DNA from: Tidjanibacter massiliensis
Lineage (GTDB): Bacteria > Bacteroidota > Bacteroidia > Bacteroidales > Rikenellaceae
Assembly (NCBI RefSeq): GCF_900104605.1
Contig: NZ_LT629960.1
Location: forward strand, 1,612,001 to 1,676,000
DNA: 64,000 bases
Direction: 5' to 3'
The translations under genes and the position numbers were made by a program. Position 1 is the stretch's first letter. Every line of letters starts with the position of its first letter. This document shows positions 60,238 to 64,000 of the stretch, piece after piece. The notes beneath the pieces were generated by a model that worked only from the letters and a program-made list of their open reading frames with translations, ran no database searches and was not told the DNA's origin.

Positions 60238-60608
60238 AAATTCGTCTTCGTATTTTTGTCTTGCATCCGCAAAGATAGGAAATATATCATCGAAATATAA
60301 CGGTACAAGCCGGGGATGCCGAATCGGAACACGGCGGCGGAGCCAATGCCGCCAAGCGAAACGGACGGATTATCCCGATACACGGAAACAGCAGGGAGCA
60401 GACGAAACCCCGGAACGCGGCGGCCATTCGGCAAACCGGCCTCGCGGCGGCTCCCGACCTTCCGTTTTCCGCTCCATCCGGAGTCCGAAACCGACTGCCG
60501 CAGCACCGCTCCGCGACAGGTCTGCGAATGCGACCTTGACCGGAACACCCGGACGGAACCGTTTCAAAAGCCGTTTTCTGTATAGTTTCCCACTTTTTCA
60601 AAAATATG
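60238..60608. other. Divergent gap between leuS and the sulfur operon promoter
   Basis: About 370 bases. It holds the leuS promoter box next to the leuS start. The rest has no gene with recognisable features; several overlapping open frames are Arg/Pro-rich on both strands. Confidence 0.5.
60270..60277 (-). promoter_or_regulatory. Probable -7 promoter box of leuS
   Basis: On the minus strand TATCTTTG matches TAnnTTTG exactly; the leader would be only about 25 bases. The -33 element is poor. Confidence 0.55.
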
Positions 60609-60639
60609 TTTGGTTTTAATGAAAATTTGCATACCTTTG
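60609..60639 (+). promoter_or_regulatory. Promoter of the SAM-riboswitch sulfur operon
   Basis: TTTG (60609-60612), a 19-base spacer and TACCTTTG (60632-60639) match the Bacteroidetes promoter perfectly. The predicted start lies about 25 bases before the riboswitch. Confidence 0.88.
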
Positions 60640-60668
60640 TGGCAACACTATGAGTGAAAGTAGTGCCG

Positions 60669-60771
60669 AATTATAACGAGAAGCGGAGAGAACGGGCTCT
60701 ATGAAACTTCGGCAACCTATCGCAACGATAAGGTGCCACGTCCCGACCTGCCAAGGACAGGAAATATAATT
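60669..60771 (+). ncRNA. SAM riboswitch (S-box, SAM-I type)
   Basis: Aptamer expected to bind S-adenosylmethionine and shut the operon down when it is abundant. The P1 helix is AATTATA (60669-60675) with TATAATT (60765-60771). The core contains ATGAAACTTCGGCAACC at 60701-60717, then a hairpin CCTATCG/CGATAAGG (one bulged A) that leads into AAGGTGCCACGTCC, and a small P4 with GTCC/GGAC. These are the conserved SAM-I elements. It lies downstream of a perfect promoter and upstream of genes for homocysteine synthesis and metF, as expected of its ligand. No clear terminator follows P1, so the expression platform is probably translational or acts through the upstream ORF. Confidence 0.87.
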
Positions 60772-60775
60772 AACC

Positions 60776-60889
60776 ATGAAGGCTATGAAAACGACTATTT
60801 CAGGAGAAGCTTTTTCAACGACATGTTACTGCGGCGGTTCGTCGCGCAGTCTTTTCTCCATGGATATGCGTATGCGCCAAGCGCGCTAA
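60776..60889 (+). CDS. Upstream ORF, 37-residue Cys/Met leader peptide (candidate)
   Basis: An open frame of 37 codons starts four bases after the riboswitch P1 helix (ATGAAGGCTATGAAAACG) and ends in TAA. The product contains Cys17-Tyr18-Cys19 followed by Gly-Gly-Ser-Ser-Arg, and Met29-Asp-Met31-Arg-Met33-Arg. For so short a peptide in a sulfur-amino-acid operon this is striking. The Cys codons (60824-60826, 60830-60832) overlap the base of a hairpin with a UUCG tetraloop (60829-60849). A second small hairpin (GCGC-CAA-GCGC, 60874-60884) follows the last Met codon. I infer a regulatory leader peptide; no such family is known to me, and translation is not proven. Confidence 0.55.
   Translation: MKAMKTTISGEAFSTTCYCGGSSRSLFSMDMRMRQAR
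60829..60849 (+). promoter_or_regulatory. UUCG-tetraloop hairpin inside the upstream ORF
   Basis: CTGCG (60829-60833) pairs with CGCAG (60845-60849) and CGG with TCG around the tetraloop TTCG, with one bulged G. The helix covers the second Cys codon of the upstream ORF. A ribosome paused at these codons would open it. Confidence 0.5.
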
Positions 60890-61002
60890 TCTTATCTTAT
60901 TCCCGGAACATACTATCGACAGACCTGTAAGACAGGCCGTGCATAGTTCGCCGTATCCTTACGGCATCATGTAATCAAACACGCATATTATTAACAATCA
61001 AC

Positions 61003-61020
61003 GCATAGCATTAGCTATGC
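61003..61020 (+). promoter_or_regulatory. Hairpin just upstream of the DUF39 gene
   Basis: GCATAGC (61003-61009) and GCTATGC (61014-61020) form a perfect 7-bp stem with an ATTA loop, 17 bases ahead of the ATG at 61038. It may regulate initiation of the first enzyme gene. The 5' arm is also similar to GCATAG at 60941-60946, so an alternative pairing is possible. Confidence 0.45.
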
Positions 61021-61037
61021 CCTGTAATTTCATTACC

Positions 61038-62198
61038 ATGGCGAAAACATATCAACAGATAAACGAACGGATTAAGAACGGCGAAGCGGTCGTACTGACT
61101 GCCGAGGAGGTGTCGCAACTCGCCCTCACGATGTCGCCGGAAGAGATAGCCGACAAGGTGGACGTCGTAACCACCGGTACTTTCGGCGCCATGTGCTCTT
61201 CGGGCGCCTTCATCAACTTCGGACACTCCGACCCGCCCATCCGCATGGAACGCATCGAACTCAACGGTGTGGGCGTAAGCGGCGGACTCGCTGCCGTGGA
61301 TACCTACATAGGAGCCACCGACTGCAACCCGGCCAATCCCGAATACGGCGGAGCGCATATCATCGAAGACTTCATCAACGGCAAGGACATTCTGCTGGAG
61401 GCCTGGGGCAAAGGGACCGACTGCTATCCCCGCCGCCACATCCGCACCTACATCAACCGGGATACGGTGAACGAAGCCTATCTCTACAATCCGCGCAACG
61501 CCTACCAGAACTACAATGTGGCGACCAACACCTCCGACCGCACCATCCATACCTACATGGGTACGCTCCTACCGAAGATGAAGAACGCCAGCTACTCCAC
61601 CTCCGGCGAGCTGTCGCCCCTGCTGAACGACCCGGAGTGCCGCACGATAGGACTCGGTACGCGCATCTTTCTCGCCGGTGCGGAAGGGTATGTGGCGTGG
61701 AACGGGACGCAGTTCAACACCTCCAAGGAGACGAACGAATACGGTATCCCGACAAGCAATGCCCGCACCATCGCCGTCATAGGCGACCTGCGTGAGATGA
61801 GTACCGAATACCTGCGGGGCATGTATTACGAGAAGTACGGATGCAGTCTCTTCGTCGGCATCGGTATTCCGATACCGATACTCGACGCCGACCTGGCCCG
61901 CCGCGTATCCATCCGCAACGAACAGATTGAAACGACCGTGGTGGATTACGGCAACGGCAACAGAGTGCTCGGCAAAACCAACTACGCTGCCCTGCGGAGC
62001 GGCGAGATAGAGGTCGGCGGCCACCGGATAAGAACAGCCCCCGTGTCGAGCCTCGCCAAAGCCCGCGAGATAGCGGAACTGCTCAGGGAGCGCATCCGGA
62101 GCGGCAAATTCCTGCTGAGCGAGCCGGTACGCCCCATGCCTACGGGTACTACGACCAAGAAACTGCAAATACGCGAAGAACCCGGAAGAAACCATTGA
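61038..62198 (+). CDS. DUF39 homocysteine biosynthesis protein (COG1900)
   Basis: A 386-residue protein of the DUF39 family. Members such as MA1821 of Methanosarcina acetivorans act with a NIL-ferredoxin to make homocysteine from aspartate semialdehyde and sulfide. The segment VVTTGTFGAMCSSGAFINFG carries Cys53, and GKGTDCYPRR carries Cys129; these match in spacing the two catalytic-type cysteines reported in the archaeal enzyme (alignment not run). The archaeal protein has CBS domains at its C-terminus; here the chain ends soon after the family core. Start 61038 (MAKTYQQINER) is preferred over an in-frame ATG at 61017, which lies in the hairpin. First enzyme of the operon. Confidence 0.85.
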   Translation: MAKTYQQINERIKNGEAVVLTAEEVSQLALTMSPEEIADKVDVVTTGTFGAMCSSGAFINFGHSDPPIRMERIELNGVGVSGGLAAVDTYIGATDCNPANPEYGGAHIIEDFINGKDILLEAWGKGTDCYPRRHIRTYINRDTVNEAYLYNPRNAYQNYNVATNTSDRTIHTYMGTLLPKMKNASYSTSGELSPLLNDPECRTIGLGTRIFLAGAEGYVAWNGTQFNTSKETNEYGIPTSNARTIAVIGDLREMSTEYLRGMYYEKYGCSLFVGIGIPIPILDADLARRVSIRNEQIETTVVDYGNGNRVLGKTNYAALRSGEIEVGGHRIRTAPVSSLAKAREIAELLRERIRSGKFLLSEPVRPMPTGTTTKKLQIREEPGRNH

Positions 62199-62211: not shown

Positions 62212-62619
62212 ATGAAAAGGAAATATATGCTGTCGTTCTCGGAGAGCACGGGCGACAAACCGATAATACACGACCTGATAAAACGTTTCGACATATGCAT
62301 CAATATCATCAAGGCGGAGATGGCACCGGGACTGGCCGGGTCCATGCTCGCGGAGTTCAGCGCTCCTGAAGGGGACATCGCACAGGCACTTGAATTCCTT
62401 GCCGCCCAAGGGGTAGGAACAGCCCTCGTCACGGACAAAATCATCTTCCGTGAGGAGCGGTGCGTACAGTGCGGCAGTTGTGCGCTGGCCTGCTTCTCCA
62501 AAGCACTGACCATCGGGCCGCCCGACTGGAAACTCTCCTTCCAGCGGGAAAACTGCATATTGTGCAAACTGTGCCTGACGGCATGCCCGCAACATTTATT
62601 CACCATAGCAAACGACTAA
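62212..62619 (+). CDS. NIL domain protein with two 4Fe-4S clusters
   Basis: A 135-residue protein, 13 bases after DUF39. The N-terminal 75 residues have the NIL fold found in substrate-binding parts of methionine transporters (KYMLSFSESTGDKPIIHDL, then GDIAQALEFLAAQGVGTAL). Two ferredoxin motifs follow: Cys84, 87, 90, 94 and Cys115, 118, 121, 125, both CxxCxxCxxxC. In methanogens the matching protein (MA1822) works with DUF39. It probably delivers electrons or sulfur to the reaction. The stop is two bases before the next start. Confidence 0.85.
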   Translation: MKRKYMLSFSESTGDKPIIHDLIKRFDICINIIKAEMAPGLAGSMLAEFSAPEGDIAQALEFLAAQGVGTALVTDKIIFREERCVQCGSCALACFSKALTIGPPDWKLSFQRENCILCKLCLTACPQHLFTIAND

Positions 62620-63503: not shown

Positions 63504-64000
63504 ATGAAAGTAAAAGAGATATTGGCAGCATCGGACAGGACGCTCATCTCGTTCGAGCTCCTGCCGCCGCTGAAGGGCGGCGACATCGGGAAGGTCTACA
63601 ACGCCATTGAACCGCTCATGGAGTTCTCGCCCTCCTTCATCAATCTTACCTACCACCGCGACGAGGAGGTGATACGCCAGCGGCCGGACGGAACACTGGA
63701 GCGCATCACGGTCACGAAACGCCCCGGAACGGTGGCACTGGCGGCGGCCATCATGAAACGTTACGACGTGGAGGTGGTTCCCCATCTGGTCTGCGGCGGC
63801 CTCGACCGCCATACGATAGAGAATATCCTGATAGACCTCAACTTCCTCGACATCGACAACGTGATGGCGCTGCGGGGCGACCCCGCTCCGGGCGAACGCT
63901 TCTTCACCCCCACCAGAGGAGGACACGCCTACTGTTCCGACCTCGTGCGGCAAATCAGCGACATGAACCGGGGCGTCTACCTCGACGAACTCCAGCAGAA
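63504..64000 (+). CDS. metF: Methylenetetrahydrofolate reductase, 3' end outside window
   Basis: The first 165 codons of metF. The product reduces 5,10-methylenetetrahydrofolate to 5-methyltetrahydrofolate, the methyl donor for methionine synthesis. It begins MKVKEILAASDRTLISFELL with the family motif FELLPPLKGGDI, followed by FINLTYHRDEE, RPGTVALAAAI, VVPHLVCGG and NVMALRGDPAPGE, the FAD and folate site segments. The frame is open at the window end. The gene lies 117 bases after UPF0280 on the same strand and is likely in the same SAM-controlled unit. Confidence 0.95.
   Translation, partial: MKVKEILAASDRTLISFELLPPLKGGDIGKVYNAIEPLMEFSPSFINLTYHRDEEVIRQRPDGTLERITVTKRPGTVALAAAIMKRYDVEVVPHLVCGGLDRHTIENILIDLNFLDIDNVMALRGDPAPGERFFTPTRGGHAYCSDLVRQISDMNRGVYLDELQQ

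Follow-up and report, generated by a model that had tools for sequence, protein, structure and literature searches.

In attenuation of the trp/his/ilv type, codons for the regulated amino acid are clustered towards the end of a short upstream open reading frame (uORF), RNA structure lies at the same place and a biosynthetic gene follows downstream, and the leader described here is alike in all of these respects. It is unlike these systems in that a SAM-I aptamer precedes the uORF and would set its initiation, and in that a terminator/antiterminator pair is not demonstrated for it. With the SAM-I (S-box) family, RF00162, the leader shares an aptamer above the gathering score, but in most of the long Bacteroidales leaders surveyed the first ATG past it belongs to a leader peptide rather than to the gene. 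Mycobacteria reportedly possess leaderless polycysteine short ORFs, which are resembled here by three loci with clustered Cys codons (L105, L134, L138), whereas the uORF under study and most others of the set use Met and are not leaderless.

The uORFC-8-2 motif ahead of cysS in Rhodobacterales, as outlined in the available passages of its report, holds two tandem Cys codons of a uORF within a stem, and ribosome-mediated attenuation was proposed for it (PMC8632094). The present leader resembles it in the placement of uORF amino-acid codons inside a stem and in the attenuation idea, but belongs to another phylum; in those passages no riboswitch is described and a U run for a terminator is present (PMC8632094). 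The Xanthomonas SAM-I riboswitch, according to the accessible text, also binds uncharged initiator tRNA, so that a single leader integrates SAM and Met-tRNA charging as is suggested here; there the expression platform binds tRNA directly, whereas here a translated Met cluster is proposed (PMC7270179). Excerpts of a Bacteroides thetaiotaomicron transcriptome study describe 5′ UTR sORFs that recall leader peptides (PMC7366714). SAM-I was reported from Bacteroidetes in a 2007 survey whose consulted passages mention no leader peptide (PMC2258182), and a 2010 survey, in the part available, states that leader peptide systems had until then been known only from Proteobacteria and Actinobacteria (PMC2965389). 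Among the matches listed in the open-licence literature (titles and openings of abstracts), no report combines SAM-I with a Met leader peptide.

Organisation of the leader

The window, a 64,000-nucleotide stretch of Tidjanibacter massiliensis contig NZ_LT629960.1, contains the following elements.

60609–60639, + strand: Bacteroidetes-type promoter, called from sequence; TTTG (60609–60612), 19 nt, TACCTTTG (60632–60639)
60668–60772, + strand: SAM-I riboswitch aptamer, RF00162, 68.5 bits (gathering score 44.4), E 7.1e-14
60776–60889, + strand: Met-coded leader peptide uORF, 37 codons, or 34 codons from the likely start at 60785
60860–60874, + strand: Met codon cluster Met29, Met31, Met33 (within SMDMRMR), identical in G000, G010 and L203; Met33 is Val in L283
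61038–62198, + strand: homocysteine biosynthesis enzyme HcyBio, first gene, PF01837 E 4.1e-146; frame open from ATG 61017
62212–62619, + strand: NIL-domain/4Fe-4S ferredoxin-type protein, PF09383 and PF00037
62622–63386, + strand: PRK04334-type protein, NF003323 E 8.3e-69, 231.7 bits with the cut-off of 271 not reached; no Pfam match
63504–63998, + strand: methylenetetrahydrofolate reductase, truncated by the window end, PF02219 E 5.9e-19

The promoter at 60609–60639 was called with the −33/−7 Bacteroidetes consensus. RF00162 gave a single match in the whole genome search at E ≤ 0.001, and a T-box or second riboswitch in the leader was rejected, the Rfam gathering scan of the window returning one SAM and five tRNA matches. 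In the initial annotation a SAM riboswitch and a homocysteine operon flanked an amino-acid-coded uORF, and this arrangement holds, with RF00162 before the uORF and HcyBio (PF01837) after it. As an observation the ORF at 60776–60889 is confirmed: its translation, MKAMKTTISGEAFSTTCYCGGSSRSLFSMDMRMRQAR, comprises 37 residues with Cys17, Cys19, Met29, Met31 and Met33 all at the positions originally given, and its start, described there as lying four bases past the SAM P1 stem, is the fourth base after the aptamer end at 60772. The second in-frame ATG, 60785, is the likely start, since it lies 13 nt past P1, the median of the relatives, and is the sole start common to L203.

Within the genus, RF00162 was found among 23 genomes in G000 and G010 alone. 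A single copy of the pattern ATGGAYATGCGY-N(3-13)-GCGCTRA was present in each of 4 Rikenellaceae genomes out of 200 searched (reversed control, 0), and all four copies lie ahead of HcyBio; G000 and G010 carry the aptamer, while G001 and G002 have none in the genome search, an absence that the Rfam scan also returned for L203, the G001 locus. The heptapeptide SMDMRMR is identical in G000, G010 and G001 and reads SMDMRFVR in G002. HcyBio itself is present in 8 genus genomes, of which L284, L285 and L287 are without aptamer and uORF, and L286, also without an aptamer, offers just 92 nt of readable upstream DNA. A Met uORF without a detectable SAM aptamer was found in L203 and L283 (genus), L206 (Odoribacter MAG), L207 (Culturomica MAG) and L263, the final Met of the cluster being missing in L207 and L283. 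Its occurrence in L206, L207 and L263 without a SAM match indicates that the peptide module is separable from the aptamer. At L203:1050-1123 (Tidjanibacter MAG, G001), the aptamer's place is occupied by a stretch that GCGTATC/GATACGC closes and that no Rfam family matches, which may be either a decayed aptamer or another RNA.

Leader ORFs behind SAM-I aptamers across Bacteroidales

Among the 463 ATG ORFs of 8–70 aa in the window, 3 have at least three Met in their last 12 residues and 32 pass a looser Met/Cys-tail rule, so that composition alone is weak and the case rests on comparison with relatives. RF00162 was detected at E ≤ 0.001 in 314/395 sampled genomes of the phylum, 114/393 of the order and 210/295 of the class. 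The first ORFs past P1 were read in 130 Bacteroidales SAM-I loci, comprising L001, L009 and 128 order loci (L002-L008, L010-L012, L043-L070, L100-L189; two order matches under the family cut-off, G699 and G710, were left out), and in 69 loci outside the order, mostly the best-scoring among the matches listed in the phylum and class surveys. The fixed rule demanded a short ORF starting ≤20 nt from P1 with at least two Met or at least three Cys in its last 12 residues.

A short ORF ≤20 nt from P1 is present in 90 of the 130 Bacteroidales leaders, against 30.5 in shuffles, and the fixed rule holds in 59/130, against a mean of 0.9 and a maximum of 4 in 200 shuffled sets; 56 leaders have at least two Met and 5 at least three Cys. 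Outside Bacteroidales the rule holds in 1 of the 69 SAM-I leaders, a Cys-tailed one, and no Met/Cys-tailed uORF was found in the best-scoring 30 Bacteroidales TPP loci, which served as a further comparison set. A relaxed version of this rule (ATG ≤60 nt, last 14 residues) admits 63/130, of which L119 is probably a chance case. Of the 48 GTDB families with SAM leaders in the set, 27 contain one or more Met/Cys-tailed uORFs. Such tails increase in frequency with leader length, from 0/12 below 60 nt through 4/35 at 60–139 nt and 12/24 at 140–199 nt to 47/59 at ≥200 nt, and the last value speaks against the leader being the rarity initially supposed. In leaders ≥140 nt, the two-Met/three-Cys rule is missed by 24/83, and 75/83 have at least one Met or three Cys in the tail.

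By similarity, the first genes of the 130 leaders encode OAH/OAS sulfhydrylase (48), MetH (48), aspartokinase (19), HcyBio (7), MetX (5) and three singletons, the family labels having been assigned from ten representatives plus similarity. The uORF accompanies HcyBio in 6/7, aspartokinase in 15/19, OAH/OAS sulfhydrylase in 28/48, MetX in 2/5 and MetH in 10/48. In other classes of the phylum, nine loci (L014-L017, L019-L021, L026, L027) carry a 4-residue ORF (MHTC, MHSC or MHPR) from the first base past the SAM P1.

The Bacteroidales tails include MPLMPMCMR, SMDMRCMR, TMPRMR and HMFMRGMRSML, and a few are poly-Cys (CCCFCCC, CCCCCCC). Specific tails kept in some groups (MPLMPMCMR, FMHFSNMCMR, HGANMCMHQRF) would suit nascent-peptide arrest, in which the C-terminal peptide stalls the ribosome on SAM, Met or another ligand rather than through hunger for Met-tRNA; this explanation is nonetheless unlikely, given that tails vary greatly among families with little in common but Met or Cys, and that poly-Cys tails occupy the same place in L105, L134 and L138.

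Cys residues call for separate treatment, sensing through Cys17 and Cys19 having been part of the original proposal. Where the window has CYC at residues 17-18-19, L009 has FRR and L203 has SYC, with SMDMRMR unchanged, so that L009 has lost both Cys and L203 has lost Cys17; sensing at Cys17/19 was rejected on this variation, and the conserved Cys cluster of a polycysteine uORF attenuator was not found in the window. That the operon is sensed through these residues is highly improbable: Cys19 is kept in L203 and poly-Cys tails exist in family f114 ahead of OAH/OAS sulfhydrylases and a PBP-like protein, but against it stand the losses just described and the position of the Cys19 codon inside a hairpin, H0, that covaries in three sequences. 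The idea of a Cys-coded uORF is sound in kind, given the poly-Cys tails of L105, L134 and L138, the clearest of their kind, which lie ahead of OAH/OAS sulfhydrylases (L134, L138) and the PBP-like protein (L105). As far as sequence comparison reaches, the Met part of the uORF is common to much of Bacteroidales and the Cys part is not conserved; conservation of the original reading frame and its residues accordingly divides, with frame and Met residues kept (27/48 families) and Cys17/Cys19 varying in relatives. Genome G681 has three SAM leaders, L070, L105 and L134, no two of which share a tail: the first has Cys plus Met, the second seven Cys and the third CCCFCCC. By eye, the poly-Cys uORF-end hairpin CTAATC..GATTAG of L134 and L138 could alternatively pair with a distal leader segment.

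Coding selection and RNA structure at the uORF end

Across 90 uORFs, picked regardless of Met, the ATGs of the final 36 nt fall in frames 0/1/2 as 168/6/11, and frame 0 is ahead in 30 of 32 families and behind in none. Cys triplets in uORF tails are distributed as 70/174/21, where the frame-1 excess is taken to reflect UGC formed by AUG preceding C, and in-frame Cys is therefore not a general signal. Among single-nucleotide codon differences, 671 of 1397 are synonymous against 349 expected (about twofold), and in Tidjanibacter 20 of 34 against 9.8; the groups were picked by tail likeness and the pairwise counts are not independent. The synonymous share ranges from 0.20 to 0.80 across groups, with the excess small or absent in the f114 poly-Cys pair (2/10, 2.3 expected) and in f148 (5/15, 3.9 expected). 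As leader-peptide attenuation requires, frame bias and synonymous excess identify an ORF that lies between promoter and operon and is under coding selection, and Met tails ahead of Met-pathway genes supply a codon cluster for the amino acid of the regulated pathway. A chance ORF with the aptamer as sole regulator has in its favour the 32 of 463 small window ORFs with loose Met/Cys tails, but is almost certainly the wrong explanation in view of the survey against shuffles and outside the order, the TPP leaders, the frame bias with synonymous excess, and the Rikenellaceae pattern search.

Four hairpins were delineated downstream of the aptamer.

60829–60849, + strand: hairpin H0, with the Cys19 codon inside; two pairs changed on both sides in 3 sequences, with one open pair in the window
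60874–60886, + strand: hairpin H1, GCGC-CAAGC-GCGC, spanning the final Met codon up to the stop, then a U-rich tract; arms invariant in 3 sequences
60912–60947, + strand: hairpin H2, inner stem 60924–60936 with AAG loop, two pairs changed on both sides in 3 sequences; outer stem 60912–60916/60943–60947 by eye
61003–61020, + strand: hairpin H3, just 5′ of the gene start; terminator-like scan match, with an equivalent in L009 by eye

The Cys codons had been assigned to the base of the hairpin at 60829–60849, which is correct for the Cys19 codon (60830–60832), located in the 5′ arm, but not for the Cys17 codon, which lies just outside and upstream. The small stem reported after the last Met codon at 60874–60884 likewise exists, although it is best read as 60874–60886, directly before the stop. 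Changes on both sides affect four pairs in the three genus sequences (two in H0, two in H2), a count reached by 9 of 500 shuffles. Covariation in these three sequences accordingly supports the first of the two originally described hairpins, H0, and speaks neither for nor against H1, which is invariant; in H1 the codons between the arms differ among the three sequences though the arms are identical.

Folding was further assessed in 92 leaders, namely 63 looser-rule leaders and 29 HcyBio loci, with L180 and L273 belonging to one contig and each counted. Over the final 20 nt of the uORF, pairing probability is 0.61–0.71 against 0.52–0.54 in shuffles, too-short leaders being omitted from these folds. 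Relative to synonymous recodings of the last nine codons, native uORF ends fold better (family-weighted z −1.0, SE 0.15, 92 leaders, 30 groups), with 81% of the weight under zero. Codon choice that favours folding, together with Arg codons in the last 8 positions that are mostly CGC and the double role of AUG as a start codon, would also fit decoy or reinitiation AUGs collecting ribosomes on one stop codon, or an RNA hairpin with an incidental reading frame. Such an origin is very unlikely, however, since the synonymous excess spans the whole uORF, the uORF ATG keeps a steady distance from P1 and the poly-Cys tails are not start codons. In Prolixibacteraceae, the stop codon lies inside a hairpin, GCGGU-UUUA-ACCGC; by eye, L262 shows one compensating change and L180 one break. 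At the L004 uORF end, a GCCC-GTT-GGGC hairpin has the last Met codon at its base and TATAATTTTTT directly behind it, an arrangement that is terminator-like.

Terminator-like sites number 3 on both strands of 60560–61060, against 0.4 in shuffles, and those on the + strand are H0 and H3. H0 with its U-rich tail was considered as a terminator and set aside; it is terminator-like in the window, and by eye the tail is absent in L009. No strong intrinsic terminator was seen right after H1 in the window, the H1 stem having 4 pairs. The capacity of the uORF tail to pair with the gene start and with the mid leader, judged by ranks alone with some pairs forming no duplex, ranked 0.51 (82 leaders) and 0.46 (71 leaders) against a null of 0.5; with ranks this near the null, there is no support for a general alternative fold, whether anti-start or long-range. 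A window fold pairing the Met segment with the pre-gene region (z −2.28; equalled by 4 of 200 shuffles) is by eye not kept in L009 and L203 and is therefore not claimed. Sequence comparison thus far establishes the uORF, its frame, the Met cluster, the association with Met-pathway genes and a structured RNA where the uORF ends.

A candidate two-input leader

The leader probably takes two inputs, with the SAM-I aptamer responding to SAM and the Met-coded uORF reading the charging of Met-tRNA. SAM gating of uORF initiation, pausing on the Met codons and the sign of the response are what we infer. The main ground for SAM gating is that the uORF ATG and the gene ATG of short leaders stand equally far from P1: the uORF ATG lies at a median of 13 nt (IQR 12–14, 63 loci), and in uORF-less leaders with a gene ATG ≤60 nt away that ATG lies 12–16 nt past P1 in 8 of 12, the other four being at 21, 21, 60 and 60 nt. 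Under this arrangement, SAM binding would close P1 and hinder initiation on the uORF, just as in short leaders it would hinder initiation on the gene. At low SAM the uORF would be translated, and the progress of the ribosome over the Met codons would be set by charged Met-tRNA. Pausing at the last Met codons would place the ribosome over H1, which otherwise may form from the last Met codon to the stop; with H1 held open, the homocysteine operon would be expressed, the candidate output being either transcription termination or translation of HcyBio.

For the order as a whole, the balance tips slightly towards a composite regulator in which the start of a tRNA-sensing leader peptide serves as the riboswitch expression platform. 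Reading of the uORF would be under the control of SAM, and the charging of Met-tRNA (or Cys-tRNA) would decide where the ribosome stops, with detachable parts in the form of the peptide without a detectable aptamer and the aptamer alone in short leaders.

If this is true, the end product (SAM) and the precursor (charged Met-tRNA) would be sensed in series within one leader. The arrangement would span an order that includes gut bacteria, for which the literature covered here offers little on leader-peptide attenuation. Long SAM leaders would thereby gain a role, and small unannotated ORFs would become a testable class.
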